DNA of 64,000 nt from Humibacillus sp. DSM 29435 (GTDB taxonomy: Bacteria > Actinomycetota > Actinomycetes > Actinomycetales > Dermatophilaceae), in NCBI RefSeq assembly GCF_001758225.1, contig NZ_MAST01000053.1:62001-126000 (forward strand), written 5' to 3'. Under the pieces are notes generated by a model. That model had not been told where the DNA came from. It saw only the letters and a list, made by a program, of their open reading frames with translations, and made no database searches. Positions within the stretch are counted from its first letter, which is position 1, and each line of letters begins with the position of its first letter. Below are positions 8,977-26,815 of the stretch, piece by piece. The position numbers were made by a program, and so were the translations under genes.

Positions 8977-10194
8977 ATGAACCTTTCCGAGCGAGCCGTC
9001 GAATCGCAGCGGCTTCAACGGACGCATCTGCCCGGGCGCCGCGAGCAGCTGGGCATGACGGTCAGGGAGGCAGACCTCTCGTTGGGCCTGAACGGTGCCG
9101 GAGGCGGGCTTCTCGACACCACGCATTTCGACACCGTGCGGTTTCCTCCGCCCGACTGGGCCATCAGCACGTTCGCCGCGGCGGCCGCCGACGGCACGAC
9201 GGCTTACACCGCGTATCGCGGAAGCGACGAGGTGCGCCGAGCCTGTGCCCGCTCGGTCTCGGGACTGATGGGTGTCGAGATCGACCCGTCGAGGAACATC
9301 GCCATCACGGCCGGCACCCAGAGTGCCCTCTTCGCCGTGCTGAGCGCCGTCGTCGATGAAGGTGACGTCGTCGTTCTCGCTGATCCCGAGTACCTGTTCG
9401 TCGAACGGATGCTGGCCTTCCTGGGCGCCGAGGTACGTCGGCTTCCGTTCGTCTCGACCACCTCAGGTCTGCAGCCCGACCTCGACCAGCTCGACCTGTA
9501 CAGCAGCACGGGCATCAAGTTGTTCATCACCTCCAACCCCAACAACCCGACGGGCACCGTGCTCAGCCCGGGTTCCGTGGCCCGCCTGGCTCAGCTGGCC
9601 GTTCGCGACGACTTCCTCGTGCTGATCGACGAGCTCTACGCTCGTCTGGTCTACGACGACGTCCCCTACACCCATCTGGCGGCCCAACCGGGAATGGCCG
9701 ACCGCACCATCACCCTGCTGGGAGGCTCGAAGACGGAGTCGCTGAGCGGCTACCGTGTCGGGGTCGTCGTCAGCTCGGCGCCCGTCATCGACGCTGTCGA
9801 ACAGACTCTTGCGATGCTCTGCCTCCGGGCACCGGCCTACGCCCAGCACGTGCTGACCAGGTGGCTCGTCGACGACGGTGACTTCGTGGCCAAGCGCGTA
9901 GCGGAGCTGCACGACATCCGGCGCACCACGATCGAGCAGCTGCTCACCGTGCCGGGCCTGGTCGTCGCCGCCGGGTCGGGAACCGCCTACCTCTGGCCCG
10001 ACGTGTCCGGGCTCGGTATCTCAGGCCTCGAGGCGGCCAGGGTTCTGCAGGAGAAGGCCGGCGTGGTGGTCAGCCCCGGCTACCAGTTCGGGCCATCGGG
10101 GAGCAACCATTTTCGCATCTGCTACGCCCGTGACGAACGGGAGTGGGCCGCCGCTCTCGAACGCATGACGGCCGCCTTGCGCGGGGAGTCCTGA
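8977..10194 (+). CDS. PLP-dependent aminotransferase, class I/II
   Basis: The product is 405 aa of fold-type I. Key segments are AYRGSDEVRRACA (about 79-91), the PLP-phosphate contact SNPNNPTG (186-193), the Asp in LIDELYARL (about 218), the Schiff-base Lys in LLGGSKTESLSGYRVG (Lys 252, Arg 260), and a C-terminal Arg in FRICYARDE. The ATG at 8977 follows a GGAGG at about 8963. RidA lies 58 bases downstream, which suits an enzyme releasing reactive enamine/imine intermediates. Substrate specificity is unknown. Confidence 0.9.
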   Translation: MNLSERAVESQRLQRTHLPGRREQLGMTVREADLSLGLNGAGGGLLDTTHFDTVRFPPPDWAISTFAAAAADGTTAYTAYRGSDEVRRACARSVSGLMGVEIDPSRNIAITAGTQSALFAVLSAVVDEGDVVVLADPEYLFVERMLAFLGAEVRRLPFVSTTSGLQPDLDQLDLYSSTGIKLFITSNPNNPTGTVLSPGSVARLAQLAVRDDFLVLIDELYARLVYDDVPYTHLAAQPGMADRTITLLGGSKTESLSGYRVGVVVSSAPVIDAVEQTLAMLCLRAPAYAQHVLTRWLVDDGDFVAKRVAELHDIRRTTIEQLLTVPGLVVAAGSGTAYLWPDVSGLGISGLEAARVLQEKAGVVVSPGYQFGPSGSNHFRICYARDEREWAAALERMTAALRGES

Positions 10195-10252
10195 CCCAAC
10201 CGCCCAATGATCCTGGGCACCGGCGAACAGTCGGTGACAGAACGGAGCAGCA

Positions 10253-10624
10253 ATGAAGCAGGCCATCAGCGCAGCCGACGCGCCGGCACCCGCCGGCCCC
10301 TACTCGCAGGCGGTTCGGGCGGGCGACTTCCTGTTCGTGTCGGGGCAGGTGCCTCGCCGCGCCGACGGCACCTACGAACCTGCCGACGTGGCCACCGAGA
10401 CCCGGCTGACGTTGCGCAACCTCTCGGCGATCGTCGCCGCGGCGGGCGCACGGCTCGAAGACTCGGTCAAGATCACCGCCTACCTCGCCGACGGCTCCGA
10501 CTTCGAGGAGTTCAACCGGGCCTATGCCGAGTTCTTCGACGACACGCCTCCGGCGAGAACGACGGTGGTCGCGGGGCTGCGCCAGGTCAAGGTCGAGCTG
10601 GACGCGATCGTCTACCTGGGTTGA
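10253..10624 (+). CDS. RidA family reactive enamine/imine deaminase
   Basis: The product is 123 aa, normal for RidA/YjgF/UK114. Visible signatures are PAPAGPYSQAVRAGDFLFVSGQ at the N-terminus and the C-terminal ARTTVVAGLRQVKVELDAIVYLG, which supplies the carboxylate-binding Arg and the Glu of the family active site. RidA proteins hydrolyse enamines and imines made by PLP enzymes. The gene directly follows an aminotransferase gene, consistent with that role. Its 3' end overlaps the convergent LysR gene by 13 bases. Confidence 0.9.
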   Translation: MKQAISAADAPAPAGPYSQAVRAGDFLFVSGQVPRRADGTYEPADVATETRLTLRNLSAIVAAAGARLEDSVKITAYLADGSDFEEFNRAYAEFFDDTPPARTTVVAGLRQVKVELDAIVYLG

Positions 10625-11623: not shown

Positions 11624-12469
11624 TCAGACGCCGGCCCCGATGCGCTCGACGAGCTCGGCGTGCCAGCCGGGTTCGGGCTTCGCCGTCTCGATCCACCACG
11701 TTGCACCTGCGTCCACGTAGTCGGGCAGCTCGGTCATCAGCTGCCGGGGGTCATCGGTCACCTCGGCCCAGACGGCGAGGTCGAACGCAGAGGCTCCGGG
11801 CTCACGGTGGTCGGCCACGAGGTCACGAACGCCGGCGATCTGTTCGACAGAGGGTCGGGCCAGTCGGCCGTCGGCCCACGTGATGGGCACCGCGCCGTCC
11901 CACCGGGCCGCCCTGAGCATGGGCCGTCTGCGTGGCAGTGTGCCGCCGACCCAGATGGGAACTCGCGGCCGTTGCACCGGTGTCGGGGTGAAGCTCACCC
12001 CGTCGACCGTGTAGTGCTTGCCCTGGTGCGTGAAGGGTTCCCCGGTCCAGAGCCCCTCGAGTACCGTGAGCCCCTCGTCGAGCATCTCGGCGCGGATCAC
12101 GGCATCCGCCTCGTCGCCGAAGAGGGCGAAGTCCCCTTGGGCGGGCGAGCCGATGCCGACGCCCAGCACGAGCCGGCCGTTGCTGATCCGGTCGAGGGTG
12201 GCCGTCTGCCGGGCGAGCACCGCGGGTCGTCGGCGAGAGATCGGCGTGATCATCGTGCCGATCGTGATGCGTTCGGTCGCGTCGGCGATCAGGGCCAGTA
12301 CCAGCCAGGGGTCGAGGATGTCGGGGCCGACACCGTCGTTGCTGAACAGGATGTGGTCCCAGAGGAAGAACCCGTCGAAGCCCGCCTTCTCAGCCGCGAC
12401 CCCGAGCTCGACGAGGTCGTGGGGGTCTACGGCGAAGTTGGGGGCAGCGAGTCCCCGTTTCAGCGTCAC
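11624..12469 (-). CDS. Luciferase-like (LLM class) oxidoreductase
   Basis: The product is 281 aa from GTG 12469; this start gives a GTGA overlap with the stop of the preceding DUF4438-like gene. The TIM-barrel LLM signatures include GFDGFFLWDHI (about 32-42), TERITIGTMITPISRRRPAVLARQTATLD and GRLVLGVGIG. Members use FMNH2 or, in actinobacteria, often coenzyme F420. Which cofactor applies is not visible. Translational coupling places it in the same operon as the TldD/TldE and DUF4438 genes, where it presumably oxidises a pathway intermediate. Confidence 0.85.
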   Translation of the reverse strand: MTLKRGLAAPNFAVDPHDLVELGVAAEKAGFDGFFLWDHILFSNDGVGPDILDPWLVLALIADATERITIGTMITPISRRRPAVLARQTATLDRISNGRLVLGVGIGSPAQGDFALFGDEADAVIRAEMLDEGLTVLEGLWTGEPFTHQGKHYTVDGVSFTPTPVQRPRVPIWVGGTLPRRRPMLRAARWDGAVPITWADGRLARPSVEQIAGVRDLVADHREPGASAFDLAVWAEVTDDPRQLMTELPDYVDAGATWWIETAKPEPGWHAELVERIGAGV

Positions 12470-13341
12470 CGGCCGGCCAGCTCGGTGAGCAGGCTCGCGC
12501 TGACTCCAACATGGTCGTCGGGTCGCACCTCGAGCTCGACGGTCGCTCGTGGGGCCGAGAAGATCGGCATCATGCCCACCCCGTGGCCGGGGCGGGGGCT
12601 CGTCGTCGTCACCACGACTCCGAGTGTCACCCACCCCCTGCGGTACCCGGCGTTGCGCCGCACGTCGAGATCGGCGACCGCCACCAGGTCACCGATCGCC
12701 AGGCGATGCAACCCGAGCCGGTCGGCGTTGCTCGCGTCAACCTGAAGGTCGAGGTCCCACTGGTGGGCCGGCCGGCCGAGCCCGTTCCCCACGACCTCCG
12801 AGCCGACGACACCGCGCACCGTCGCCGAGACCTGTGCATCGCCGATGGTTACCCCGAGCCGAGGCAGGATGCCGGGGTCGACGTTGAGCAGCTCGGCCCC
12901 CCGCTCGGCGAGTGCCCCTGAGAGACCGGCCCCCTGACCGTAGGCCCGCACGGACATGGCGTCGCCGGGGACGATGGTGGCCAGGGTCTCGGGCGGGAAC
13001 CAGGCCAGCACCCGACCCTGCTCGCCCCGTTTGCCGAGCACGACGCCGCCGGCGCCCGCGGCGGCGCCGCTGCGCACCGTCACCGCGTTGCCCAGGCAGG
13101 CGAACGCGGTCAGGGCGTACCGCGCGGCCGGGTCGGAATGGACCAGCGACACCGCGGCGCTGGCGTGATCGGTGTCGAAGGCGAAGACGCTGTCTCCGAG
13201 TGAGATTCCCAGCACAACCCCTCCGTCACCGATGGGCACGTAGGGGCGCCCATCGACATCGATGAGGTACGGGTTGTTGTCGAGACCGGGGTGCTCGACG
13301 ACGCCGGCCACGTTGGTGGCCACGAGCGTGGGGGTGTTCAT
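12466..13341 (-). CDS. DUF4438-like protein, copy 1
   Basis: The product is 291 aa with no membrane segment. It contains GDGGVVLGISLGDSVFAFDTDHASAAVSL, then ACLGNAVTVRSGAAAGAGGVVLGKRG and a C-terminal RRGWVTLGVVVTTTSPRPGHGVGMMPIFS. These features fit, from memory, the uncharacterised DUF4438 family. It is clearly homologous to the next gene: both share NAVT.RSG.AAGA.G..GK/GQ, the NTDPG/NVDPG segment and GHG.G near the C-terminus. The genes overlap by 4 bases. Biochemical function is unknown; operon context suggests a binding or catalytic role with TldD/TldE. Confidence 0.65.
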   Translation of the reverse strand: MNTPTLVATNVAGVVEHPGLDNNPYLIDVDGRPYVPIGDGGVVLGISLGDSVFAFDTDHASAAVSLVHSDPAARYALTAFACLGNAVTVRSGAAAGAGGVVLGKRGEQGRVLAWFPPETLATIVPGDAMSVRAYGQGAGLSGALAERGAELLNVDPGILPRLGVTIGDAQVSATVRGVVGSEVVGNGLGRPAHQWDLDLQVDASNADRLGLHRLAIGDLVAVADLDVRRNAGYRRGWVTLGVVVTTTSPRPGHGVGMMPIFSAPRATVELEVRPDDHVGVSASLLTELAGR

Positions 13342-14213
13342 GAGAGGTCTCCCATCGTGGTCAGGGCCGAGGCAAGGTTGGCTGCGTCGTCGATGCGAAC
13401 GTCGAACGCCGACGCCGGGCCCGACAGCAGGGTGCTCGGGCCCGGGCCGTGACCGAACAGCCGACAGTGACCGGTGCTGATCACCCCGATGGTCGTGAAC
13501 CCGGGTCGGTGTCCACGGCCGAACCGGTGGTCCTGGTCGTCCAGCGCTACGAGGTCACCGACCCGCAGCCCCTCCAGGCCCAGCGAGAGATCCGACTTCT
13601 GCCCGGGGTAGGCCCCCATCAGGTCGGTGTTCGCGAACTCGGAGTACATCCCGGCGCCCGCCCCGACAGCCGCAGCGGGTACCCGCGTGGCCACGGGCAC
13701 CCGCAGTCGCCCGTCGGCGCCGGTGTCGATGCCGAGAAGGTCGAGCAGGCCCGGGTCGGTGTTCTTGACCACGATGTCGGGATGCTCTGTCAGCCTCAGT
13801 CCCTGACCCCGGGCGTGCACGGTCACGGTGTCACCCACGGTGACTCCCGCGAGCGCCTCCTCGGCGAGATCGACCAGCACGTAGGCGTGTTGCCCGATGA
13901 CCCGCCCGACGGCTCCCGCCGAGGGGCCGGAGCGGAGGGTGACCGCGTTTCCGACACAGGTGAGGAACTGCAGGGCCATGTTCGCCCGCTCGTCACGGTG
14001 ACGCACGGAAAGGCCGGGCTCCAGGTGGTCGGCGGCGTAGCCGGTCGCCGGGTCGCCGGGGTGCACCCCGAGAGTGACGGCGCCCATGCCGGGCAGCAGG
14101 AAGGGGTGCCCGTCGGCATCGGTGCGATACCCGTGCCGGTCACCCAGCGCGGGCCACACCTCGCCGGTGAGCACCTGGGTCACCAGGCGGTCGCGGTTGC
14201 ACAGCAGGGTCAT
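13338..14213 (-). CDS. DUF4438-like protein, copy 2
   Basis: The product is 291 aa, the same length as its downstream paralogue. It shows LLPGMGAVTLGVHPGDPATGYAADHLEPG, CVGNAVTLRSGPSAGAVGRVIGQHAYVLVDL, KNTDPGLLDLLGIDTG and GFTTIGVISTGHCRLFGHGPGPSTLLSG. A good GAGGAG ribosome-binding site precedes ATG 14213. The paralogues are diverged enough to have distinct roles, for example two subunits of one complex. DUF4438 assignment is from remembered family features, not a search. Confidence 0.65.
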   Translation of the reverse strand: MTLLCNRDRLVTQVLTGEVWPALGDRHGYRTDADGHPFLLPGMGAVTLGVHPGDPATGYAADHLEPGLSVRHRDERANMALQFLTCVGNAVTLRSGPSAGAVGRVIGQHAYVLVDLAEEALAGVTVGDTVTVHARGQGLRLTEHPDIVVKNTDPGLLDLLGIDTGADGRLRVPVATRVPAAAVGAGAGMYSEFANTDLMGAYPGQKSDLSLGLEGLRVGDLVALDDQDHRFGRGHRPGFTTIGVISTGHCRLFGHGPGPSTLLSGPASAFDVRIDDAANLASALTTMGDLS

Positions 14214-14255: not shown

Positions 14256-15683
14256 TCAGTGAGTCGGGGCGGCGCCAAGGCGGAACCCGTGCGCCCGGAT
14301 GGCAGGAGCGGTGATGGCGCCGTTCCAGACGTTCATGACCGGCGAAGAGCGCCGGAGGTCACCGACCCCGTCGACCGAGGCCAACACCTCGAGAACCGAC
14401 TGGGTGAACCTCATGCCACGAAGCGGGCGGCCGAGGCGCCCACCCTTGATCTCGAAGCAGGCGTCGCGGGTCACCCCCGTGATGGTGGTGGCCGTGGTGT
14501 CGACCGGACGGGTGTACCAGAACCGTTGGATGTAGACACCCTCGTCGACACCCGCAATCAGCTCGGCCTCGGTCGAGGTGCCCGCCGCCATCACGATGTT
14601 CGCGGCTCGCGTCTCCGGAACCTCCTCGCGGGCGATGTGCGCGTGACCGGTGGACCGAGACCGGGGGAGGGAGGAGGTGAGCACGCGAGCCGTGTGGAGG
14701 TCGAGCACGGGGGAGTCGACGACGCCGTGGTCGAGCAGCTGCACTCTCTGCTTGGGCACGCTCTCGATGTCGAAGCCGACCGGCAGGCCGATGTCGGCCA
14801 GAGCGTCGTCGGCGATGTCGACGGCTGCAGTGGCCACCTGCTGGCCACGAGACCGCGTCCAGAGCCCGACCCCTGCTGCGGCGAGCTCTCCGGAGAAGCC
14901 GAAGCTGGGGAGGAACTCGAGCAGCTCCGCCGTCGCCTCCGGGCCGAGCACCACCGTGTAGACGCCCGGCTCCAGGTCACCTCGACCCGTGCTCGCTGCG
15001 GCCTGCTGCAGGCCGGCCTCGATCGCGAGTCCGAGCTGCAGGCGCGAGCTCGATCGCCCGACGTCGACGAAGTGGCTCGTGCCGTCGTCGACGGTGAAGG
15101 TACAGCTCGCCAGCGCTTCCGTGGCGAGCGTCGCCCGTTCGACGCCGCCACTCGTGGCCGTCACGAGCGAGGTGGCCGCCCGCCCGAACATGCCGGCCAC
15201 GGTGGCGCCACCCACCCCCGCGGCGATCATCGCCGCCCGCACCTGCTCGACCCGGGCGGCCTCGTCGAACGCCGCTGTGTCGTCGAACCAGAGCAACGAA
15301 CGCGGCGGCCCGACCGGTCCGGTACCGAAGGTCTGACGGGTCGCGACCCGATGGCCGCCGGGCGCAGACGAGCCGGCGGCGATCGCCCTCGCGAACGAGG
15401 CGGCCGACGCCGCGGCCTGCGCGGCACCGGCCAGGCTGCTCGTGGAGGCGCGCGCCGCGTGGCCGTTCACGACCGCCCGCACCATCACCTGCACCTCGAC
15501 GATGTCCTGCGGTTGGTGGATGCGGTCTCCGGCGAACCGGGTGTACTGCCCGTTGCGGCCGGTCAGGAACGCGTCGAACTCGTCGGCACCCGAACCGCTG
15601 ACGACCGCAGTGAGGGTCTCGAGCGCGGCGTCGAGGTCGACGGCAGGCCCGAACGCGTCATCGCTCATCGGGGCTGTCGCCAT
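14256..15683 (-). CDS. TldE/PmbA-like metallopeptidase partner
   Basis: The product is 475 aa. It shows the TldD/PmbA fold segments (RVQLLDHGVVDSPVLDLHTARVL, VMAAGTSTEAELIAGVDEGVYIQRFWYTRPVDTTATTITGVTRDACFEIKGG and GDLRRSSPVMNVWNG) but no HExxxH motif, as expected for the TldE subunit that completes the TldD active site. In E. coli the TldD/TldE heterodimer degrades unfolded peptides and processes microcin B17. Its ATG overlaps the tldD-like stop (TGATG), implying equimolar co-translation. Substrate here is likely a peptide brought in by the operon's transporter. Confidence 0.88.
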   Translation of the reverse strand: MATAPMSDDAFGPAVDLDAALETLTAVVSGSGADEFDAFLTGRNGQYTRFAGDRIHQPQDIVEVQVMVRAVVNGHAARASTSSLAGAAQAAASAASFARAIAAGSSAPGGHRVATRQTFGTGPVGPPRSLLWFDDTAAFDEAARVEQVRAAMIAAGVGGATVAGMFGRAATSLVTATSGGVERATLATEALASCTFTVDDGTSHFVDVGRSSSRLQLGLAIEAGLQQAAASTGRGDLEPGVYTVVLGPEATAELLEFLPSFGFSGELAAAGVGLWTRSRGQQVATAAVDIADDALADIGLPVGFDIESVPKQRVQLLDHGVVDSPVLDLHTARVLTSSLPRSRSTGHAHIAREEVPETRAANIVMAAGTSTEAELIAGVDEGVYIQRFWYTRPVDTTATTITGVTRDACFEIKGGRLGRPLRGMRFTQSVLEVLASVDGVGDLRRSSPVMNVWNGAITAPAIRAHGFRLGAAPTH

Positions 15684-17191
15684 CAGGCCACCCCGATCCG
15701 CTGGTCACGAACGAGGATGGGGGCCGCGCCATGGCTGAGGAAACCCCACTGCTTGGGTTCGCCCTTGCCGCAGGGGTAGCCGAAGTTGCGAACTTCCTCC
15801 GGGCCGGCCACGGCCTCGACCGAGCCCCAGAACTGGGGGGTCACCCCGCCGTAGCTGAAGTTCTTCAACAACCGACCTCTGCGTCCGCGTTTCACCTCGT
15901 AGGCCACCTCGGTTCCGAACTGGAAGTTGACCCGGCGGTCGTCGATCGACCAGCTGTGGTTGTCGTCCAGGTAGTAGCCGGTCCCGAGGCGCTCGAGCAG
16001 CTCGCTCAACGACCCGTGCCCCGGCTCGAGGTGCACGTGCGTGGAGAAGCAGACCGGAAGGTAGGCCCACCCGTCGGAGCGGGCCGCACCGGTCACCGGC
16101 AGGCCGGCCCGAGCAGCCGACTCACGCGAAGACAGGGTGTTGTGCACGATGCCTGCGACGACCAACGGGGTGCGAGAGGCGGGGGTCCCCTCGTCGTCGA
16201 ACGCGAAGCTGCCCCGGGTGCCCGGCACGGTGGGATCGGAGGTGATGCTCACGGCGGCTGAGCCGTAGCGGAGCCGGCCGACGTCGTCGACACCGATGAA
16301 CGAGGTTCCCGCGAAGTTCTGCTCGTCGCCGAGGATGCGGTCGAGCTCGAGGGGGTGCCCTGCCGACTCGTGGATCTGCAGCGACACCTGCTGGGCACCG
16401 ATCACCAGGTCGGCGCGGCCGGGTGTCGCGACCGGCGCCGTCAGCAGCGCGACCGCCTCCTCGCCGACGCGGCCGGCGTTGGCGACCATCTCGAGGCCGA
16501 GCACGAACTCCCAGCCGGCCCCTGCAGTGTCGCCGTGGAAGGAGTTCGGGTAGCTGCGTCGCTGGATGTCGTGGCCGTCGGATGCCGTGGCGACCATCAT
16601 CGCGCCCGACTCCATCAGGTGCTGGTGCTGGCGGGAGCCCTCGGTGTCGGCGTAGTGCCGATGCTGTCGCTTCGCGTTGACCCCGGCCTGGGCGTCTCGA
16701 ACGGCGGCCGGACCGGTCATGGTGGCCATCACGTCTGCGAGCAGGCCGTGACGGCTCGCGTCGTCCACCGCGAACGGGTCGAGCCTGACCTCGGTGGCAT
16801 AGCGACCCGAGATGCCCTCGCGAGCCGGCAGACGCGAGCGAGCGCCGACGCCGATACCGGCCCGAGCGACGGCGAGGGCTCGCCGAGCTGCCGCCGCCGG
16901 GTCGCCGGACGCTCCCAAGGGGCGGGACGCGAAGCCCCAGGCGCCGCCGACCAGCACTCGCACGCCGATCCCCACGTTGTACTCCCGGCGCTCGTCGGGG
17001 TCACCCTCGTGGCGGTGGTAGGCGCGAAGCTCCTCCGCCTCGACGAGCCTCACGTCAGCGAACTCGACGTCGCGGGGCAGCACAGCCAGCGCCTGCTCCA
17101 GCAGGCTCGTCGCCGACCCGTCGTCGGCGAGATCGCCCCAGTCGTGTGCCTGGCTGCGATCTGCCCCCTCGCCGTCGGTCTCGAGGGCCAC
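15683..17191 (-). CDS. TldD-like zinc metallopeptidase
   Basis: The product is 502 aa from GTG 17191, one base after the preceding stop. The TldD metal motif is LQIHESAGHPLELDRIL, an HExxxH with ligands at about His274 and His279. Downstream are FAFDDEGTPASRTPLVVAGIVHNTLSSRESAARAG and a C-terminal GTEVAYEVKRGRRGRLLKNFSYGGVTPQFWGSVEAV. TldD with TldE forms a barrel-like protease for small unstructured or modified peptides. Here the pair sits in an importer/oxidoreductase operon rather than as a scattered housekeeping pair. Confidence 0.9.
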   Translation of the reverse strand: MALETDGEGADRSQAHDWGDLADDGSATSLLEQALAVLPRDVEFADVRLVEAEELRAYHRHEGDPDERREYNVGIGVRVLVGGAWGFASRPLGASGDPAAAARRALAVARAGIGVGARSRLPAREGISGRYATEVRLDPFAVDDASRHGLLADVMATMTGPAAVRDAQAGVNAKRQHRHYADTEGSRQHQHLMESGAMMVATASDGHDIQRRSYPNSFHGDTAGAGWEFVLGLEMVANAGRVGEEAVALLTAPVATPGRADLVIGAQQVSLQIHESAGHPLELDRILGDEQNFAGTSFIGVDDVGRLRYGSAAVSITSDPTVPGTRGSFAFDDEGTPASRTPLVVAGIVHNTLSSRESAARAGLPVTGAARSDGWAYLPVCFSTHVHLEPGHGSLSELLERLGTGYYLDDNHSWSIDDRRVNFQFGTEVAYEVKRGRRGRLLKNFSYGGVTPQFWGSVEAVAGPEEVRNFGYPCGKGEPKQWGFLSHGAAPILVRDQRIGVA

Positions 17192-17192: not shown

Positions 17193-18239
17193 TCAGTAGC
17201 CTCGGCCGGCCTGGTAGACGTTCCGGAGCGGCTCGCCGCCCCGAAGTCGACGGAAGTTGTCGATGAACAGGTCGGTGAGCACCTCGTTCTCGACGGCGGC
17301 GGTGGAGGCCGAGTGCGGTGAGACCAGCACGTTCGGCAGGTCCCACAACGGTGAGGCGGACGGCAACGGCTCGACGTCGAAGACATCGAGCGCGGCGCCG
17401 CCCAGCTTCCTGGCCGAGAGCGCCTCGGTCAGGGCGTTCTCGTCGATCACCTGCCCCCGTGCAACGTTGACGACGATGGCTCCCGCGGGGAGCGCGGACA
17501 CCCTCGAGGCGTCGATGAGGTTCTGGGTCTCGGGCGTCAGGGGAACCGCCAGCACGAGGATGTCGGTCGCCTCCAGCACGTCGTCGAGGTTCTCGATGTC
17601 GATGGTGGCTACGCCGTTCGGCAGGTCGTACGTGCTGCCCGAGCGACCGACGCCGGTCACCTGCACGCCGAGCGCATGGAAGACCGTGGCGACCTGGCGT
17701 CCGATGGAGCCGAGCCCGACCACGGTGGCTCGTCGACCGGCGAGCTGACCACTGACGTGTCGCTCCCAGTGGTGCTCACGCTGGCGCGAGACCAGCTGCG
17801 GCACGTCCTTGACGAAGTGCAGCACGCCGGTGACGGCGAACTCGGCGAGCGGTGCAGCGTGCGTGCCGGCGGCGGTGGTGAGCGTGAGCTCGCCACCATC
17901 CAGGCCGTACCGCTTCACGAAACCCCCGATCCCCGCGCTGGTCGCCTGCACCCACTGCAGCCTGGGGGCGTTGGTCAGCAGCTGTGCAGGATCGCGCCAG
18001 TCGAAGTCGAAGGCCACGTCGGCGGTCGCCAGCATCTGCAGCCACTCACGTTCCTGGGCCGGCGAGAGGGTCGGTGGCGTCCCGCCGTGGTCGTTGCCGT
18101 ACCGGGGCACGGGGAGCAGCTCTGGCGCGTAGAGCACCTCGACGTCGGCGCTCTGCCTGATCCGTTCGACCAGCGCCGGCTCGAGTGGGGTCGAGATGAG
18201 AACCGAGGGGCGGTCGGGCAGCTGGGTGGGTCGGGTCAC
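17193..18239 (-). CDS. D-isomer-specific 2-hydroxyacid dehydrogenase
   Basis: The product is 348 aa from GTG 18239, giving a GTGA overlap with the upstream Gfo/Idh/MocA stop. The NAD-binding motif is VVGLGSIGRQVATVFHALG, followed by LAVPLTPETQNLIDA, NVARGQVIDENALTEAL (catalytic Arg region), ALDVFDVEPLPSASPLWDLPNVLVSPHSA with the catalytic Glu and His. The family reversibly reduces 2-oxoacids to D-2-hydroxyacids; the substrate is not predictable from this. A longer upstream-start version is low-complexity and unlikely. Confidence 0.9.
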   Translation of the reverse strand: MTRPTQLPDRPSVLISTPLEPALVERIRQSADVEVLYAPELLPVPRYGNDHGGTPPTLSPAQEREWLQMLATADVAFDFDWRDPAQLLTNAPRLQWVQATSAGIGGFVKRYGLDGGELTLTTAAGTHAAPLAEFAVTGVLHFVKDVPQLVSRQREHHWERHVSGQLAGRRATVVGLGSIGRQVATVFHALGVQVTGVGRSGSTYDLPNGVATIDIENLDDVLEATDILVLAVPLTPETQNLIDASRVSALPAGAIVVNVARGQVIDENALTEALSARKLGGAALDVFDVEPLPSASPLWDLPNVLVSPHSASTAAVENEVLTDLFIDNFRRLRGGEPLRNVYQAGRGY

Positions 18240-19213
18240 CGTGCTTCTCCTGTCGTGGCGGCGGCGCGAACGAGGTCGAGCGACCGAGCCTGCTGGACGG
18301 CATCCTGCACGGCGGTGTGTTGCGCCGTCGCCTGGCCGAGGATGACGGCGTTGATGTGGTCGATGGCGTGCCGGAACGCCGAGCCGGAGGCTGCCGGCCA
18401 GGTCTCGACGTGTTCCCGACCAACCCACAGCTCGACCGTGTCGCGGGCGGTGGGGTGGAAGGGGTTGGTCACTCGCAGCTCACCGGTCGTACCGACGATG
18501 CGGGTGAAGGTCGACATCGGGCGGCGCATACCGGCCGACATGATCAACCGCCGTGACTGCGGGAAGTCGACGACGGCCGCCATGTCGAGCTCTACTCCGC
18601 CGGGGCTCGGGGTGAGCGCGGTCGCAGCGTGCACCGGTTCCGAACCGAACAGGTGTCGGGCGAGGCGAAGGGGGTAGCACCCGACGTCGTACAGCGCCCC
18701 GCCACCGAGCTCGCGGCTCAGGCGGATGTTCCCGGTGGCACCGGTGATGTCGAAGTGGAACTCCGACACGATCTCGGTGAGGTCACCGATGCGTCCCTCG
18801 GCCACGAGGCGCTCCAGCAACGTGGTCTGGGGGTGGAACGCGAAGACGAACGACTCCCACAGCAGGTCATCAGGACCGACCGCGGCGACCAGGTGCTCAG
18901 CCTGAGCGGCGTTCAGGGCAATGGGCTTCTCGCAGAGCACCGCCTTGCCCGCTGCGAGGGCGGCGGCCGCCCAGACGGAGTGCTGGTCGTTGGGTAGCGC
19001 CACGTACACGGCGTCGACATCGTCAGCCGCCACTACAGACTCGTAGGTGCCGGCGCGCGTCACCCCGTTCTCGGCGGCCCATGTCTGGCCGCGGTTCTCC
19101 GAGCGACTGCCGACCACGGTGGCCACTCCGCCCGCTTCGCGCAGCGCGGGGAGGAACGCCTTCGCGGCGATGTTCGCCGTTCCCAGCACGCCCCATCTCA
19201 TCGGATCAGGCAT
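18236..19213 (-). CDS. Gfo/Idh/MocA family oxidoreductase, copy 2
   Basis: The product is 325 aa from ATG 19213, which overlaps the GntR stop by 8 bases; ATG 19201 is an alternative that avoids overlap. The NAD(P)-binding Rossmann motif is MRWGVLGTANIAAKAFLPAL, and the family signature is KAVLCEKPIALN (catalytic Lys in EKP). Later VGCYPLRLARHLFG is typical of the C-terminal domain. Members oxidise or epimerise sugars, inositols and their derivatives. It is distinct from the longer Gfo/Idh/MocA protein encoded just upstream of the GntR gene. Confidence 0.9.
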   Translation of the reverse strand: MPDPMRWGVLGTANIAAKAFLPALREAGGVATVVGSRSENRGQTWAAENGVTRAGTYESVVAADDVDAVYVALPNDQHSVWAAAALAAGKAVLCEKPIALNAAQAEHLVAAVGPDDLLWESFVFAFHPQTTLLERLVAEGRIGDLTEIVSEFHFDITGATGNIRLSRELGGGALYDVGCYPLRLARHLFGSEPVHAATALTPSPGGVELDMAAVVDFPQSRRLIMSAGMRRPMSTFTRIVGTTGELRVTNPFHPTARDTVELWVGREHVETWPAASGSAFRHAIDHINAVILGQATAQHTAVQDAVQQARSLDLVRAAATTGEAR

Positions 19214-19883
19214 GGGTGGACCCCACGTAGTGGTCGCGCAGCGCGGCGACCGCAACCGTCGGGTCCTTGCGCCGGAACGAGGTCAGCAGCTTGCGATGCA
19301 TGGCCACGGTCTCGTCCAAAGACATGCCCTGGCGATCCAGGGTCGAGCGCATCAGCGCACCCATCTGCCCGTTCAGCGTCGACCACAGCTCGACGAGGCG
19401 CGGATGCCCGCTGGCGTCCATGATGAGCCGGTGCAGCTCGGTGTCGAGCTCGACGATGCCCGACACGTCGTCTGTGTCGGCCGCGAGCTGCATCAGGTCG
19501 ACCACGTCGCCCATGTCCGCGAGGAGACCGGGCCGCACCAGGTGCCACACGTCAGTCAGCGACGCCGACTCCAGCACGAACCGGGTGTAGCAGGCCTCGG
19601 CCACGTCTTCGGCCGACATCCGCGACACGATCGTGCGGCGTCTCGGCTGCACCTCGATCAGCCGCTCGGTCTGCAGCTCGCGCAGTGCAGCGCGAACGGT
19701 CGTGCGGGAGACGCCGAACTCCGCCGCCAGGTTCAGCTCCACCAGGGGCGTCCCGGCCGGCAGCTCGTTGCTGAGGATCTGGGACCGGAGAATGTCGTGA
19801 ACCGACTCGGGCAGTGAGCGGTGCTGCAGCACCGCGCGCTGCCTGTTCCCGGGGCCAGGGGCGGTGATGGCAGAAGTGGTCAT
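19206..19883 (-). CDS. GntR/FCD family transcriptional regulator
   Basis: The product is 225 aa. The winged helix has LRSQILSNELPAGTPLVELNLAAEFGVSRTTVRAALRELQTERLI (about residues 31-75), and the C-terminal FCD ligand domain carries the metal-binding His pattern LDTELHRLIMDASGHPRLVELW and MHRKLLTSFRR. FCD regulators bind short palindromes and respond to carboxylates or sugar acids. It lies inside the train it probably controls; the best operator candidates are the two TTGTCGACAA palindromes upstream of the train, with a weaker 8/10 match TTGTCGCGAA at 19895-19904 beside its own start. Confidence 0.9.
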   Translation of the reverse strand: MTTSAITAPGPGNRQRAVLQHRSLPESVHDILRSQILSNELPAGTPLVELNLAAEFGVSRTTVRAALRELQTERLIEVQPRRRTIVSRMSAEDVAEACYTRFVLESASLTDVWHLVRPGLLADMGDVVDLMQLAADTDDVSGIVELDTELHRLIMDASGHPRLVELWSTLNGQMGALMRSTLDRQGMSLDETVAMHRKLLTSFRRKDPTVAVAALRDHYVGSTHA

Positions 19884-19931: not shown

Positions 19932-21062
19932 TCAGCGCCCGTCGGCGGCGAGCGGGAAGTCCACCCAGGCGCGGGTGCGATGGGCCTGCTCGAACGCGTT
20001 GATCGTCTGCTGCACCAGGGCGCCCTGACGAAAGTCACCCTGGTTGACGGGTCCGCCTCCCAGGATCTCATCGGTGAAGTCACGCAGCACGTTGGAGTAG
20101 AACAGGAAGGGCCACGGCTCTTTCGAGGTGCCACCGGCGGGAAAGAAGCGCTCGGGAATGTCGCGCTCGACGAACTCGACGGAATCCTTCGTGGCCGTCC
20201 TGATCGTCTGGCAGATGCCGGCCTCCTCGACCAGACGCACGATGATCGCCCCCTCGGACCCGTAGATCCGCACTTCGATCCCCGGATAGTTCCCGACGGT
20301 CACGAACGAGGACTGCACGGAGGCGAGGCGGCCACCACCGAACTCGGCGATCCACATGTCACCGTCGTCGATGTTCACCCGCGTCATCTCGCCGGTCTCA
20401 CGCACCACTCGGTTCGGCACGAAGTTGCGCATGGTGCCCACGACCGACTCCAGGGGGGCATCCATCCACCAGTGCATGATGTCGATGACGGGCGCCCCGT
20501 ACCCCTCGATGGAGGACACCGCGATCTCTGCGTCGTCGTCGGTGGTGCGCAGCTGTCGCAGGGGAGTCTGCGGGTCCAGCCACTGGCTGTTCTGCTCGAA
20601 GGCGTTGAGCATGTAGGGCTCCCCGATGAAGCCCTGGGCGATCAGCTCGGCCGCGTACATGGTGGCGGGGGCGTAGCGGAACGTGAAGCCGAGCTTGGTC
20701 TTCAGGCCCTTGCTCTCGGCCAGGTCGGCTGCCGCGATGACCTGGTGATAGTCCGAGTGCACCGGCTTCTCGCACAACACGTGCTTGCCCGCCTCGAGCG
20801 CGGCCCACGAGACCTCGAAGTGCATCTGGTCGCCCGTCACCACATCGATGACGTCGATGTCGGGGTCTTCCACCAGACGGCGGTAGTCGCTCTCGAGCCG
20901 CTCGATCCCGAACTCCTTCCCGGCGCTGGCGAGGGCTTCCGCGTCGGTGTCGGCGAGCCCGACCACCTCTACGCGCGGGTCACGCTGCCAGCCGGGAATG
21001 TGCGAGCGGGTGGCCCAGCGACCGGTGCCGATAACGCCGACGCGAAGCTTTTTCTCTGACAC
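19932..21062 (-). CDS. Gfo/Idh/MocA family oxidoreductase, copy 1
   Basis: The product is 376 aa from GTG 21062. It has VGVIGTGRWATRSHIPGWQRD (Rossmann), VDVIDVVTGDQMHFE, the signature KHVLCEKPVHSDYHQV with catalytic Lys, and GAPVIDIMHWWMDAPLESVVGTM in the C-terminal domain. The ending VNQGDFRQGALVQQTINAFEQAHRTRAWVDFP is typical of myo-inositol-dehydrogenase-like members. It follows the transporter genes. The presence of two such oxidoreductases plus a 2-hydroxyacid dehydrogenase suggests several redox steps on a polyhydroxylated or amino-sugar-like moiety. Confidence 0.9.
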   Translation of the reverse strand: MSEKKLRVGVIGTGRWATRSHIPGWQRDPRVEVVGLADTDAEALASAGKEFGIERLESDYRRLVEDPDIDVIDVVTGDQMHFEVSWAALEAGKHVLCEKPVHSDYHQVIAAADLAESKGLKTKLGFTFRYAPATMYAAELIAQGFIGEPYMLNAFEQNSQWLDPQTPLRQLRTTDDDAEIAVSSIEGYGAPVIDIMHWWMDAPLESVVGTMRNFVPNRVVRETGEMTRVNIDDGDMWIAEFGGGRLASVQSSFVTVGNYPGIEVRIYGSEGAIIVRLVEEAGICQTIRTATKDSVEFVERDIPERFFPAGGTSKEPWPFLFYSNVLRDFTDEILGGGPVNQGDFRQGALVQQTINAFEQAHRTRAWVDFPLAADGR

Positions 21063-21098: not shown

Positions 21099-22202
21099 TC
21101 AGCGGGCTGCCCAGAAGTCCATGGGTTCCACCAGGGACGATCGGGGCGGTGTCTCCTGGCCCGACCGGGACGGGGGTTGAAGGTCGATCTCCTGGTGCCT
21201 GCGACACCGGACACCGGCCGGCGAGCCTGCAGCGCCGGCCACCAGCAGCTCCGTCGTCCACGTCGAGCAGCCTTCGTCGGCGAACGTGCAGCGGGGCAGG
21301 AACCGGCACGTGTCGGGAAGGTCGATGAGGCGCGGTGGAGAGCCAGAGATCGCGGTGAGCGGCTGGTCGCGCGGCACTGCGCCAGGAAGCGACTTCAGGA
21401 GCGCATTCGTGTAGGGGTGCCGTGGGGTGTGCAGGAGCGTGGCCGTCTCGGCGAGCTCGACCACCTGACCCCCGTACATGACAGCGACGCGATCGCACAC
21501 CTGGGCGATCACGGACAGGTCGTGGCTGACCAGCACCAGGCTCGTACCCAGGTCTCGCTGCAGGTCGACGAGCAGGCTGAGAATCTGGTCCTGGATGATG
21601 ACGTCGAGCGCGGTGGTCGGCTCGTCGGCGATGAGAACACGAGGGTCACCGGCCAACGCGATGGCGATCAGGGTGCGTTGCAGCATGCCGCCGCTGAACT
21701 GGTGCGGGTAGTCGCGCATTCGCTTCTGCGGGTTCGGAATACCCACTCTGGTCATCAGCTCGACGATCCGCTCGAACCGTTGCGACTTCGGCATCGACGA
21801 GTGCGCAGCGATGGCTTCGGCGATCTGGTCGCCGATGCGGTGCACCGGGTTGAGCGAGGTCATCGGGTTCTGCGGAATCATGGAGATGTAGGTGCCCCAG
21901 TGCTTGCGCATGACACCCCGCCCGGCATCGAGCACGTTCTCGTCCATCACCCCGGGGTAGGTGACCGACCCCGTGTGGCGGGCCTGGGCCGAGGGCATCA
22001 GTCCCAGCAGCGACCGGCAGGTGACGGTCTTGCCGCTGCCGGTCTCGCCGACGATGCCGAGCACCTCTCCCGACCGCAGTGTCAGTGACACATGGTCGAC
22101 GGGGGTGACGATGCCCCCGGAGGTCGGGATCGTGACGGAGACGTCGTTGGCCTCGAGCAGGACGGCTGCCTGAGGGGCGGTCACGGTGTGGTCGGTTCTC
22201 AT
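21099..22202 (-). CDS. Oligopeptide-type ABC transporter ATPase (DppD/OppD-like)
   Basis: The product is 367 aa. Walker A is GIVGETGSGKT, the signature is FSGGMLQR, and Walker B is VLIADEPT, followed by LVSHDLSVIAQVCDRVAVMYGG. The C-terminal Cys cluster DTCRFLPRCTFADEGC is characteristic of the Opp/Dpp ATPases, which often bind an Fe-S cluster. It overlaps the DppC-like gene by 4 bases. Together with the second ATPase encoded at the start of the train it should energise the importer. Confidence 0.95.
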   Translation of the reverse strand: MRTDHTVTAPQAAVLLEANDVSVTIPTSGGIVTPVDHVSLTLRSGEVLGIVGETGSGKTVTCRSLLGLMPSAQARHTGSVTYPGVMDENVLDAGRGVMRKHWGTYISMIPQNPMTSLNPVHRIGDQIAEAIAAHSSMPKSQRFERIVELMTRVGIPNPQKRMRDYPHQFSGGMLQRTLIAIALAGDPRVLIADEPTTALDVIIQDQILSLLVDLQRDLGTSLVLVSHDLSVIAQVCDRVAVMYGGQVVELAETATLLHTPRHPYTNALLKSLPGAVPRDQPLTAISGSPPRLIDLPDTCRFLPRCTFADEGCSTWTTELLVAGAAGSPAGVRCRRHQEIDLQPPSRSGQETPPRSSLVEPMDFWAAR

Positions 22203-23071
22203 CGCTTGGTCCTCAACAGGTCTGACAGTCCGTCACCGACGAGGCTCAGGCCCACGCCCAGCACCACCAGCGCGGCTCCGGGCACCAGCGACAGCCACCA
22301 GTTCGACAGGATGAAGTTCTGACCCGACGAGATCATCGAACCCCACTCCGGGGTGGGCTCGGGGATGCCGACCCCGAGGTAGCCGAGCGAAGCGCCCAGC
22401 AGCACGTTGCCGACGGCGTCGACCATGGCGAAGATGATCACACCGGGCAGCACACTCGGCAGCAGGTGGCGCGACAGGATCCGCAGGTGGGAGAACCCGA
22501 GCGCCTTCGCCGCCACGACGTAGCCGTACTGGTTGGCCGAGAGCGTCTGCCCGTGGGAGATGCGCGCGTAGCTGACCCAGCTGACCACCCACAGGGCGAT
22601 GAACAGGTTGATCAGGCTGGTCCCGAGCGCAGCGATGATCGCGATGACGAGCACGATGAACGGGAAGGCGAAGAACAGGTCGACGATACGCATGACGACG
22701 GCGTCGGTCCGACCGCCGATGTGCGCAGACACCACCCCGACCACGGTGCCGACCACCAGGGTCACAGCGGTGGCGCCGAACGCGATGGCGAGGTCGTAGC
22801 GGCCACCGTAGATGACGCGCGTCCAGAGGTCTCGGCCGTACTCGTCCGTGCCCAGAAAATGGCCAGGGGAGAAGAGCGGGGCCAGGGGGTTCGTGGCGTC
22901 CACGGCGATCGGGGAGTACGACGTGAAGAGCGGAGCTCCGAAGCACACGACGATCATCACGAGCAGGATCGCGACGCCGAGCGCCAGCGACACGTTTCCG
23001 CTGAGCCCGGGCAGCAGCGGGCGACGGGGAGTGGTTCGGGTGGACGGTCGTCCGAAAAGGGTGAGGGTCAT
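22199..23071 (-). CDS. Oligopeptide-type ABC permease (DppC-like)
   Basis: The product is 290 aa with about six membrane helices. It has the OppC N-terminal segment (LSLALGVAILLVMIVVCFGAPLF), FLGTDEYGRDLWTRVIYGGRYDL, and the coupling loop KALGFSHLRILSRHLLPSVLPGVI (EAA-like). The gene overlaps the downstream ATPase gene and is separated from dppB by three bases. Confidence 0.94.
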   Translation of the reverse strand: MTLTLFGRPSTRTTPRRPLLPGLSGNVSLALGVAILLVMIVVCFGAPLFTSYSPIAVDATNPLAPLFSPGHFLGTDEYGRDLWTRVIYGGRYDLAIAFGATAVTLVVGTVVGVVSAHIGGRTDAVVMRIVDLFFAFPFIVLVIAIIAALGTSLINLFIALWVVSWVSYARISHGQTLSANQYGYVVAAKALGFSHLRILSRHLLPSVLPGVIIFAMVDAVGNVLLGASLGYLGVGIPEPTPEWGSMISSGQNFILSNWWLSLVPGAALVVLGVGLSLVGDGLSDLLRTKR

Positions 23072-23074
23072 GGT

Positions 23075-24016
23075 CTAGGCCGCCGCGAGTCGGGGATCCA
23101 TGGCCACGTGGACCAGGTCGGTGAGCAGGTTGGCTGCGAGGACGAACAGCGCGAAGAGCAGGGTCAGACCCTGGACCACCGGGTAGTCGCGGGTCGAGAC
23201 CGAGTTGACGAGCAGCGAGCCCAGGCCGGGGATCGAGAAGACGTTCTCGATGACGACCGTGCCGCCCACGAGAAAGGCCAGGTTGACCCCGAAGACGACG
23301 ACGACCTTCATGCCGGCGTTGCGCAGGATGTGGCGTGAGACCACCCGGCGCCACGACACTCCCTTGAGCAGTGCGGTCGTCACGTAGTCGGCGTCCAGCG
23401 TCTCGATCACGCTGGCGCGCAGCGAACGCACCAGCACGGTTGAGAACGGGATGGCGATCGTGATCGACGGCAGAATCAGGTGTTGCACGTGCTCGAGGAA
23501 TCCGTCGCCGAAGCCGCTGATCGGCAGGATCGGCACCTTGACCCCGAACACGAGGATGAGCAGAACCCCGAGCAGGAAGCTCGGAAGGGCGTAGCCGATC
23601 AACAGGAAGACCCGGCTGCCCTGGTCGGCGATGCCGCCCCGGTGCAGCCCCACGTAGAGCCCCGTGGGGATGGCGATGACCGCCGTGAAGAGCCCGGCCT
23701 GGGCGATGAGGAACAGGGTGGGGACGAGCCCGTCCGAGACCAGCTGCCCGACCGAGGCGTTCAGGGAGTAGGAATGCCCGAACTGCCCGCTCAACGCGTT
23801 GGTGACGAAGATCCAGTACTGGGAGAGGACTGACTGGTCGAGACCCAGGTTGAGGCGGATCTGCGTCGCCGCCTCCGGGGTGTAGTGGTTGCCCAGGATG
23901 AGCGAGGCCGGGTCGCCCGGCACCATCCGGATCAGGACGAAGGACACGATGGTGATGCCGAAGATGATCGGCAGCATCTGCACCAGCCGTCGGCCGATGA
24001 TCGCTATCCAGGCCAT
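23075..24016 (-). CDS. Oligopeptide-type ABC permease (DppB-like)
   Basis: The product is 313 aa. It begins with a membrane helix RRLVQMLPIIFGITIVSFVLIRMVPGDPASLILG, the classic DppB opening, and contains ALLKGVSWRRVVSRHILRNAGMKV as the ATPase-coupling loop and VIENVFSIPGLGSLLVNSVSTRDYPVVQG. It pairs with the DppC-like permease. Confidence 0.95.
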   Translation of the reverse strand: MAWIAIIGRRLVQMLPIIFGITIVSFVLIRMVPGDPASLILGNHYTPEAATQIRLNLGLDQSVLSQYWIFVTNALSGQFGHSYSLNASVGQLVSDGLVPTLFLIAQAGLFTAVIAIPTGLYVGLHRGGIADQGSRVFLLIGYALPSFLLGVLLILVFGVKVPILPISGFGDGFLEHVQHLILPSITIAIPFSTVLVRSLRASVIETLDADYVTTALLKGVSWRRVVSRHILRNAGMKVVVVFGVNLAFLVGGTVVIENVFSIPGLGSLLVNSVSTRDYPVVQGLTLLFALFVLAANLLTDLVHVAMDPRLAAA

Positions 24017-24047
24017 GGTGTCCTCCGTTCCTGATTCGTCATGGTTG

Positions 24048-25652
24048 TCAGTGCTTGTCGACCGTCAAGGTCAGGAGCGAGTCGTTGTAGTTGCCCAACG
24101 GTGAGGCCTTGAAGCCCTTGACCCACTTGCCGCTGGCGTACCGGAACGGGGGGTAGTTGATCGGCAGGTAGGGCACCTGGTCGTAGACGATCTTCTGGAT
24201 CTGCCGGTACATCTCCTCGCGCTTGGCCACGTCCGGCTCCGACCGTGCATCCTTGGCGAGCTTCGTCGCCGTCGGGTCGCTCCAGCTGGTGTTGAAGGAG
24301 TTGGACCCGGCATCCACGACGACGCCGAAGGTGACGACCTCGTCGGGGTCGATGATGTCGTTGGTCCAGTAGCGCTCGCCCAGGCCGTACTCGCCGTTGC
24401 GCTCCTTGTCGTACGCCGTGACGAGCTCGTACGACTCGATCTTCACGTCGATGCCGATCTTGGCGAGCGAGTCCTTCAGCGACACCGCCTGGGCCTGTCC
24501 GGCTGCGTCGCCGCTCACCGTCACCAGGTTGGTGCTGAAGCCGTTGGGGAACCCGGCGTCGGCCATCAGCTGTTTGGCCTTGGCGAGGTCGACCGTCGGC
24601 TCAGGGAGCTGGTCGTTCCAGTAGAGCATCTTGTACGGCATGAACGAGGTTGCCGGGGTGCCGGTGTCGCTGTACGCCAGCTTGTTGATCTGCTTGAGGT
24701 CAGCGGCCGCCTGGACGGCTTGCCGTACCCGCACGTCGGAGAAGTGCTTGTCCTTGGTGTTCATCTGGATGAAGTCGACGCGGGTAGACGGGAAGAGGTC
24801 GACCTGCAGCTTCGGGTTCGCCTCGATCTGCTTGGTGAGGTTGCCCGGGGGGTTCTCGATCACGTCGACGTCGCCACTCTGCAGGGCCAGAACTCGCGCG
24901 TTGTCGTTCGTGATGATCTTGATCTTGACGTTCTTGATCTTGGGCGCGGTGCCGTAGTAGTTGTCGTTGCGGACCAGGTCGATCTCCGACGTCGGCGCGT
25001 AGGTGCTGACGGCGAACGGACCACTGCCCACGGGCTTGGTGAAGAACTTGTCACCCTGTGCCTTCACCAGCTTCTCGGGGAGCACGGAGTAGGCGTACAT
25101 GGCGAGGTCGGCCAACAGGGGGGCGTGGGGCTTCGAGAGCTTCACGACGACCGTCTTCGCATCGGGCGCGCTCACCTCCTTGACCGCGGTGATCAGAAAC
25201 CCCCACCCGCCGTCGTAGGCCTTGGCCCGGTCGATGGAGAACTTCACGTCGGAGGCCAGCACCGGGGAGCCGTCCGAGAACTTGGCGTCGCGCAGGTGGA
25301 ACGTGTACGTGAGGGCGTCGCTCGAGACCTCCCAGTCCGTGGCGAGGTCGGGAACGATCTTCTTTCCCTCCGGGTCGGCTTGCACCAGGCCGCTGTACAG
25401 GTTCTGGTCGAGCCAGATCGACTCGTTGACCGAGGCGACCTGCGGGTCGAGGGTGTCGACCTTCACCGGGTTGGCGATGATGAGGGTGTCGACCTCGCTG
25501 GCACCGGCACCGCCGGTTCCTGGGTTGGTGCTGGGCGTGCCGGGGTCCGAGCTGCACGCGCTGAGCGCAAGCGCGCCGACCACTGCGGCGGCCAGACCTG
25601 TGCGGCGCCACCGACGACTGGAGTTGTCCAGTCCGGGCAGTTGAGTTGTCAT
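24048..25652 (-). CDS. Peptide/nickel-type ABC substrate-binding lipoprotein (family 5)
   Basis: The product is 534 aa from ATG 25652; longer starts would hide the signal peptide. The signal is RRWRRTGLAAAVVGALALSAC, with lipobox LSAC and the acylated Cys followed by SSDPGTPSTNPGTGG, a flexible linker. The mature protein has the SBP_bac_5 layout: VDTLDPQVASVNESIWLDQNLYSGLV near the N-terminus, LAMYAYSVLPEKLV, and YRQIQKIVYDQVPYLPINYPP at the C-terminus. Family members bind peptides, nickel chelates or opine- and glycan-like ligands. Ligand unknown. Confidence 0.94.
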   Translation of the reverse strand: MTTQLPGLDNSSRRWRRTGLAAAVVGALALSACSSDPGTPSTNPGTGGAGASEVDTLIIANPVKVDTLDPQVASVNESIWLDQNLYSGLVQADPEGKKIVPDLATDWEVSSDALTYTFHLRDAKFSDGSPVLASDVKFSIDRAKAYDGGWGFLITAVKEVSAPDAKTVVVKLSKPHAPLLADLAMYAYSVLPEKLVKAQGDKFFTKPVGSGPFAVSTYAPTSEIDLVRNDNYYGTAPKIKNVKIKIITNDNARVLALQSGDVDVIENPPGNLTKQIEANPKLQVDLFPSTRVDFIQMNTKDKHFSDVRVRQAVQAAADLKQINKLAYSDTGTPATSFMPYKMLYWNDQLPEPTVDLAKAKQLMADAGFPNGFSTNLVTVSGDAAGQAQAVSLKDSLAKIGIDVKIESYELVTAYDKERNGEYGLGERYWTNDIIDPDEVVTFGVVVDAGSNSFNTSWSDPTATKLAKDARSEPDVAKREEMYRQIQKIVYDQVPYLPINYPPFRYASGKWVKGFKASPLGNYNDSLLTLTVDKH

Positions 25653-25762
25653 GCTGGTCTCCTTGTGAGCGAGTGGGGGTGCTGGGTGGGCGTCAGAGCG
25701 GTGGTCCCGAGGGAGCCGTCGAAGCCGTCGAGGCCGTCGAGGGGCCGGATTGACAGCGGGGT

Positions 25763-26815
25763 CTAGGGGTGGGGTTCCTCCGCAGGGTTGGGGGTGGGCA
25801 GCTCGTTGTGGGTGGCCGGTGGCCCGGTGTGCAGATGGCAGGCCACGGTTCGTTCCGGCGATGGACGGATCGTGACGGGCACCACGCGCCGGCAGATGTC
25901 CATCGCCTGTGGGCACCTCGGGTGGAAGACACAGCCCGACGGGGGAGTGATGGCGTTGGGCATGTCACCGGTGAGCGCCGGAGTGCGCGCCTGTCTGGTC
26001 GTGTCGAGGTCAGGAGCCGCGTCGAGCAGTGCCTTGGTGTACGGGTGCAGGGGTCGGCGGAAGAGGTCGATGGTCGATGCCTCCTCGACCACCCGGCCCA
26101 GGTACATCACGGCGATACGGTCGCTCAGGCGACGGACCACGGCGAGGTCGTGGGTGATGAACACGTAGGCGAGGCCGAGCTCGGCGCGGAGCTTCTCGAA
26201 GAGGTTGAGCACCTGAGCCTGAACGGAGACGTCGAGCGCAGAGACGGGCTCGTCGGCCACGATCAGTCGGGGCCGAACCGCCAGGGCGCGGGCGATGCTC
26301 ACTCTCTGACGACCGCCTCCACTCAGCTGGTCGGGGCGCTGGTCGGCGAGGTCGGCTGGGAAGGCGACGGTCTCGAGCAGACGGATGGCCTCGTCGCGAC
26401 GGCCTGAGCGCGACAGGTCGCCGTGCACGACCAAGACCTCTTCGATGGACTTGGAGACCGACTGGTAGGGGTTGAGCGTCGAGTACGGGTCTTGCAGGAT
26501 GATCTGGATTCGCTGGCGCAGCTGCGCGGACCGCTGCCGGGTTGGGGTCAGGATGCTCTCTCCCTCGTAGCGGATGTCGCCGCCGGTGGGTGTCTCGAGC
26601 CTGAGCAGCAGTCGGCCCAGGGTGCTCTTCCCTGACCCGGTCTCGCCGACGACGCCGAGCGTCTGGCCGGCGCGAACCCCGACGCTCACGCCGTCGACCG
26701 CCTTGAGGGCCTGTTCGGGCTCGCGTCGAGCCTGCTCCAGGGGGGTACGTCGCACCGGGTAGTGCTTGCTCAATCCCTCGGTCTGCAAGAGGAACCCATC
26801 GTCGTTGCCGGTCAT
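25763..26815 (-). CDS. Oligopeptide-type ABC transporter ATPase (DppF/OppF-like)
   Basis: The product is 350 aa from ATG 26815; a longer start exists but adds low-complexity residues. Walker A is GVVGETGSGKS, the Q-loop segment is ILQDPYSTLNPYQSV, the signature is LSGGGRQR, and Walker B is LIVADEPVSALD. The C-terminal GCVFHPRCPQAMDIC is the Opp/Dpp Cys motif. It is the first gene of the train, immediately downstream of the double-palindrome region. Confidence 0.94.
   Translation of the reverse strand: MTGNDDGFLLQTEGLSKHYPVRRTPLEQARREPEQALKAVDGVSVGVRAGQTLGVVGETGSGKSTLGRLLLRLETPTGGDIRYEGESILTPTRQRSAQLRQRIQIILQDPYSTLNPYQSVSKSIEEVLVVHGDLSRSGRRDEAIRLLETVAFPADLADQRPDQLSGGGRQRVSIARALAVRPRLIVADEPVSALDVSVQAQVLNLFEKLRAELGLAYVFITHDLAVVRRLSDRIAVMYLGRVVEEASTIDLFRRPLHPYTKALLDAAPDLDTTRQARTPALTGDMPNAITPPSGCVFHPRCPQAMDICRRVVPVTIRPSPERTVACHLHTGPPATHNELPTPNPAEEPHP

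Follow-up and report, generated by a model that had tools for sequence, protein, structure and literature searches.

Gene organization of the DUF4438 locus

The window (the whole stretch of 64,000 nucleotides that was analysed) contains two adjacent DUF4438 genes, designated DUFa and DUFb, which were found together with the following genes and features:

11624..12469, minus strand: LLM-class (luciferase-like) oxidoreductase, 4-base overlap with DUFb (PF00296; start predicted)
12466..13341, minus strand: DUFb, second DUF4438 paralogue, putative non-catalytic partner (291 aa, intact, PF14505 and PF20999)
13338..13341, minus strand: ATGA overlap of the DUFa stop and the DUFb start (from the sequence)
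13338..14213, minus strand: DUFa, first DUF4438 paralogue, putative catalytic subunit (291 aa, intact, PF14505 and PF20999)
14256..15683, minus strand: TldE (PmbA-like), without HExxxH (PF19289/PF01523, motif scan)
15683..17191, minus strand: TldD, with HESAGH and a downstream Cys (Pfam, 5nj5 at E 1e-19, motif scan; start predicted)
17193..18206, minus strand: D-2-hydroxyacid dehydrogenase (PF02826; start predicted)
18236..19210, minus strand: Gfo/Idh/MocA oxidoreductase 1 (PF01408; start predicted)
19206..19883, minus strand: GntR/FCD regulator (PF00392, PF07729)
19932..21062, minus strand: Gfo/Idh/MocA oxidoreductase 2 (PF01408)
21099..25916, minus strand: Opp/Dpp-type importer, whole (this and its three parts by NCBIfam matches below equivalog cut-offs)
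21099-22202, minus strand: importer ATPase
22199-23071 and 23075-24016, minus strand: importer permeases
24048-25916, minus strand: importer binding protein
25763-26872, minus strand: further oligopeptide-type ATPase (PF00005 and PF08352)

From the binding protein (25916) to the LLM-class oxidoreductase (11624) all genes share one orientation and neighbours are spaced by -5 to 61 bases; this stretch is therefore likely to be a single operon. The TldD reading frame extends over 15683-17386 with a likely GTG start near 17191, and the motif scan found HESAGH and a downstream CGKG in TldD and neither in TldE. A PLP aminotransferase and a RidA-like protein are encoded on the plus strand at 8977-10624, facing the operon; such genes also flank a second Opp set at locus L018. 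A 488-aa open reading frame at 4455-5921 on the minus strand had no Pfam match and may not be a gene.

The original prediction had described two tandem 291-aa genes of the DUF4438 family with a 4-base overlap, placed directly after TldD/TldE. All of this was confirmed: the genes lie on the minus strand at 12466-13341 and 13338-14213 with an ATGA junction, immediately downstream of TldE/TldD, and both proteins scored above the curated Pfam cut-offs for both domains of the family. For the N-terminal domain PF14505 (cut-off 24.9), DUFa gave 139.7 bits (E 6.3e-41) and DUFb 90.7 bits (E 8.7e-26); for the C-terminal domain PF20999 (cut-off 27), the scores were 110.6 bits (E 5.9e-32) and 76.1 bits (E 2.9e-21), respectively. 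The two proteins are 36% identical over 270 aligned columns (E 2e-31), far above chance, and are the sole DUF4438 copies in the genome. The closest relative was a Humibacillus MAG, with a 95% identical DUFa.

A Shine-Dalgarno-like GGGAG lies inside the 3' end of DUFa, and a -4 overlap is possible in 20 of 29 related a/b pairs. Translational coupling, which had been put forward for the pair, was nevertheless dropped as specific evidence because overlaps are common throughout the operon, with further 4-base overlaps at OppC/OppD and DUFb/LLM. The equal length of the two proteins is a coincidence, since other pairs differ in length (for example 291/294 and 283/280). No NCBIfam model matched DUFa or DUFb, plasmid searches with both gave zero matches, PHROGs gave a sub-threshold match only and PADLOC none. 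The literature search found no paper on DUF4438.

Predicted fold and relation to TM1086

In sequence searches the best match of both proteins was TM1086 of Thermotoga maritima (3dcl, 3n99), at E 5e-53 for DUFa and E 1e-35 for DUFb. AlphaFold2 models with pLDDT of 91.8 (DUFa) and 88.2 (DUFb) were compared with 3dcl by Foldseek, giving E 2.7e-32 and TM 0.90 for DUFa and E 2.2e-28 and TM 0.84 for DUFb; a second aligner superposed the DUFa model on 3dcl_A with Z 40.1 and an rmsd of 1.6 over 278 residues at 38% identity. Both proteins are thus predicted by their models to adopt the TM1086 fold. Neither Foldseek nor the second aligner found a fold relative of DUFa other than TM1086, and the PDB profile search returned TM1086 plus chance-level matches only.

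The other structural rows covered only the barrel stretch (model residues ~13-136) and were N-terminal barrels of F1/V1-ATPases at Z ~8; as this is the level of a common arrangement, kinship with them was rejected. The shared GNAVTLRSGPSAGAVGRV motif in residues 84-125 of DUFa (13338-14213) resembles KOW, and a uL24 match reached only E 0.3.

TM1086 is described in one crystallisation paper, with an asymmetric unit of >1 MDa (PMC2661377). The many copies in the crystals are compatible with a large assembly but no proof of one.

TM1086 resembles DUFa in family, full-length fold and the four-residue set described below but, unlike DUFa, is a member of the single-copy clade of DUF4438. To our knowledge, it has no degenerate partner.

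Gene neighbourhoods and the link to TldD/TldE

Three types of neighbourhood were distinguished across genomes. In type I (Actinobacteria) an Opp importer, Gfo/Idh, usually TldD-TldE, DUFa-DUFb and GntR were found, frequently with a second Gfo/Idh, a 2-hydroxyacid dehydrogenase, an LLM oxidoreductase or an aminotransferase. Type II (Chloroflexota, L125-L129) consists of Gfo/Idh, 2-hydroxyacid dehydrogenase, DUFa-DUFb and Gfo/Idh twice. In type III, with hosts among Chloroflexota, Alphaproteobacteria, Deinococcota, Thermomicrobiota and Armatimonadota, most loci had an Ldh_2 dehydrogenase gene after DUFa-DUFb; the neighbours were M24, M20 or M32 peptidases, Xaa-Pro-dipeptidase-like and hydantoinase-like amidohydrolases and a DoeB-like deacylase, and also aminotransferase, GntR, Gfo/Idh and Opp genes. 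The recurring theme is a catabolic neighbourhood of an Opp-type importer, Gfo/Idh and 2-hydroxyacid dehydrogenases, GntR, aminotransferase and peptidases. Opp/Dpp-linked operons for the catabolism of peptide and amino-acid derivatives share with these loci the ABC importer, GntR, dehydrogenases, aminotransferase and peptidases, and the literature search found none described with DUF4438 at its core.

A family of ~470 aa was seen in 10 type III loci (for example L045:16356-17777, L042:16275-17846, L088:16303-17733 and L033:2062-3441). The members tested had no NCBIfam or PDB match, and their Pfam similarity to GHL10 was sub-threshold only.

The position after TldD/TldE had been taken as a strong functional hint, and DUFa/DUFb could accordingly work specifically with TldD/TldE, for instance by completing the breakdown of peptides that it opens. 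Of 14 actinobacterial pairs, 12 had TldD/TldE directly upstream, and in Chloroflexota type II it lay near two pairs (L126, L127). However, within the fetched flanks it was absent beside the two other actinobacterial pairs, L012 (7209-7274) and L142 (9689-11724), whose genomes carry TldD-family genes elsewhere, and it adjoined none of the 20 type III pairs (some of these flanks were short: L025, L041). Moreover, five genomes with a type III DUFa (G396, G398, G399, G400 and G401) had no TldD-family gene at all. A dedicated partnership is thus quite unlikely, and the hint is weakened to a lineage-limited link: absent from the type III flanks, TldD/TldE is accessory to types I and II. Single-copy DUF4438 proved frequent. 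The original prediction had held that frequent single copies without TldD/TldE would weaken a paired complex; the outcome tells in part against the TldD/TldE link and not against the pair.

Distribution and evolution of the pair

DUFa and DUFb are an ancient pair with conserved order in at least six phyla. Among 39 a/b pairs the two genes were invariably adjacent in the order a then b, and the reading frames were intact in all. Paralogue counts in other genomes, which had been suggested as a check on the pair, bore it out: exactly two DUF4438 copies were found in 15 of 16 pair-class genomes, the remaining one holding a alone. This lone DUFa-type protein is encoded in a Trueperaceae genome (L028:9989-10852) in which a second DUF4438 copy was not found.

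DUF4438 is rare in the actinobacterial phylum (1 of 198 genomes) and was above the cut-off in 5 of 394 genomes of the class; all actinobacterial genomes above the cut-off hold an adjacent pair. Counting the centre genome in each case, two adjacent copies were found in 7 of 7 genomes with matches in the family of a Tropicimonas genome (L089), two copies in 7 genomes and one in 10 in the phylum of an Anaerolineae genome (L032), and a single copy in 47 of 48 genomes with a match, with two in the other, in Bacillota, the phylum of a Peptococcaceae genome (L029). Outside the pair lineages DUF4438 is mostly single-copy. A tandem pair in Bacillota (L143:8986-10773), 64% identical and with the full residue set in both copies, fell inside the single-copy clade and arose by a duplication of its own that left no degenerate copy.

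In the tree, all DUFa proteins formed one group (SH-aLRT 92) with DUFb apart from it; DUFa of types I and II grouped together, as did DUFb of these types (97 each, starred), and the single-copy proteins, TM1086 among them, were separate from both. The AU test did not reject a single DUFb clade (p 0.45). The simplest explanation would be one old duplication, which is uncertain because of long branches. The a/b distance correlation (r 0.96) may mirror shared descent alone and is weak support for a complex.

Putative active-site residues in DUFa and their loss in DUFb

Four residues stood out in the alignment, with the following codons in the window:

14025..14027, minus strand: DUFa H63, putative active-site residue (position computed from the reading frame; invariant in DUFa and single-copy proteins)
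14019..14021, minus strand: DUFa E65, putative active-site residue; S61 in window DUFb
13887..13889, minus strand: DUFa H109, putative active-site residue; R105 in window DUFb
13449..13451, minus strand: DUFa H255 in GHGPG, putative active-site residue; kept in window DUFb (H253)

H63, E65, H109 and H255 were invariant in 40 of 40 DUFa and in 52 of 52 single-copy DUF4438 proteins including TM1086, and the full H/E/H/H set was found in 0 of 39 DUFb. At these positions, which correspond to 62, 64, 108 and 253 in the chain sequence of 3dcl (TM1086), window DUFb has H, S, R and H. The actinobacterial DUFb proteins (n=14) have mostly HARH or HSRH, otherwise SSRH; those of Chloroflexota type II (n=5) have RQHH or QQHH; and those of type III (n=20) have CHSY (16 of 20), THSH, NESY or REHY, with CHSY and THSH making up most. 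Other invariant residues, C86, D128 and D220 among them, were retained in DUFb. The residue counts are not independent events because the sequences share kinship; the independent part is three DUFb lineages with three differing losses. The pair serves as a natural experiment in which one subunit can do without four residues that the other cannot lose, and this points to an active site. The set may thus be the active site of DUFa, plausibly metal-centred from its His and Glu residues.

Loss of otherwise invariant residues and faster evolution would also be expected if DUFb were a recent, decaying and functionless duplicate. For the window pair dN/dS was 0.27 in DUFb vs 0.13 in DUFa, so that constraint on DUFb is about twofold relaxed, yet purifying selection persists (dN/dS 0.27 and 0.18). 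With this and with frames intact in all pairs across several phyla, decay is highly improbable.

The original prediction had offered a two-step enzyme as an alternative to a heteromeric complex. DUFa and DUFb would then be separate enzymes acting in sequence in one pathway, DUFb having been re-tooled and not silenced. The prevailing type III set, CHSY, is consistent and conserved over several phyla, and the C, H, S and Y at the four positions could be an alternative working site and not a dead one; purifying selection on DUFb points the same way. Against this, the set was lost by DUFb in three unrelated ways, none of the genomes with inspected loci had DUFb without DUFa, and dN/dS of DUFb in the window is ~2 times that of DUFa. 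The two-step reading is disfavoured because DUFb is without residues common to all other family members examined, and we consider it rather unlikely.

Discussion

One copy keeps the residue set and the other is always without it, which suggests a working and a supporting subunit. We favour, with a probability of roughly 0.58, an obligate hetero-oligomeric enzyme of a catalytic DUFa and a silent DUFb that helps to break down an imported compound, peptide-like or an aminoacyl conjugate. This heteromer is backed indirectly, by features of sequence and gene order: the fixed order and adjacency in 39 pairs, the 1:1 copies genome-wide and loss of the set in the second copy only. The DUFa that stands alone (L028) counts against it.

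The paralogy, fixed order, copy number, residue loss, purifying selection and neighbourhood are direct observations, and a mechanism is proposed on top of them. DUFa and DUFb would descend from a single-copy, TM1086-like ancestor that was duplicated in ancient times, and would assemble as one obligate hetero-oligomer. DUFa would be the catalytic subunit carrying the putative metal-centred set of H63, E65, H109 and H255, and DUFb, its active site presumably lost, would be a structural, gating or regulatory subunit. The substrate may be peptide-like or an aminoacyl conjugate that enters through the Opp/Dpp-type transporter, and metal-dependent hydrolysis or isomerisation would be the most likely reaction class; both are guesses. 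A sugar part of the substrate is possible, as judged from Gfo/Idh, an epimerase family and the weakly GHL10-like protein.

In TldD/TldE both proteins are required and the metal is held by TldD only (PMC5810440). Like DUFa/DUFb, these are neighbouring homologous genes that are kept together, one with a metal site (putative in DUFa) and one without. In contrast, they belong to an unrelated family, and their complex and activity were demonstrated by experiment, whereas a DUF4438 complex is inferred from sequence.

The pair is old, patterned and within a known family, and is not a new kind of system. Only tentatively may it stand for a new class of heteromeric metal-dependent enzymes with a catalytic and a silent subunit and a fold for which TM1086 was the only close PDB relative found, serving a widespread and undescribed catabolism of an imported aminoacyl- or glyco-conjugate. 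DUFa/DUFb would be a second example of working and silent paralogues, in the same operon as TldD/TldE. The recurring neighbours narrow the search for the substrate to compounds that enter via Opp/Dpp-type importers. For DUF4438, a family with a solved structure and no assigned function, what is new is a set of putative active-site residues and a proposed heteromer that can both be put to the test.
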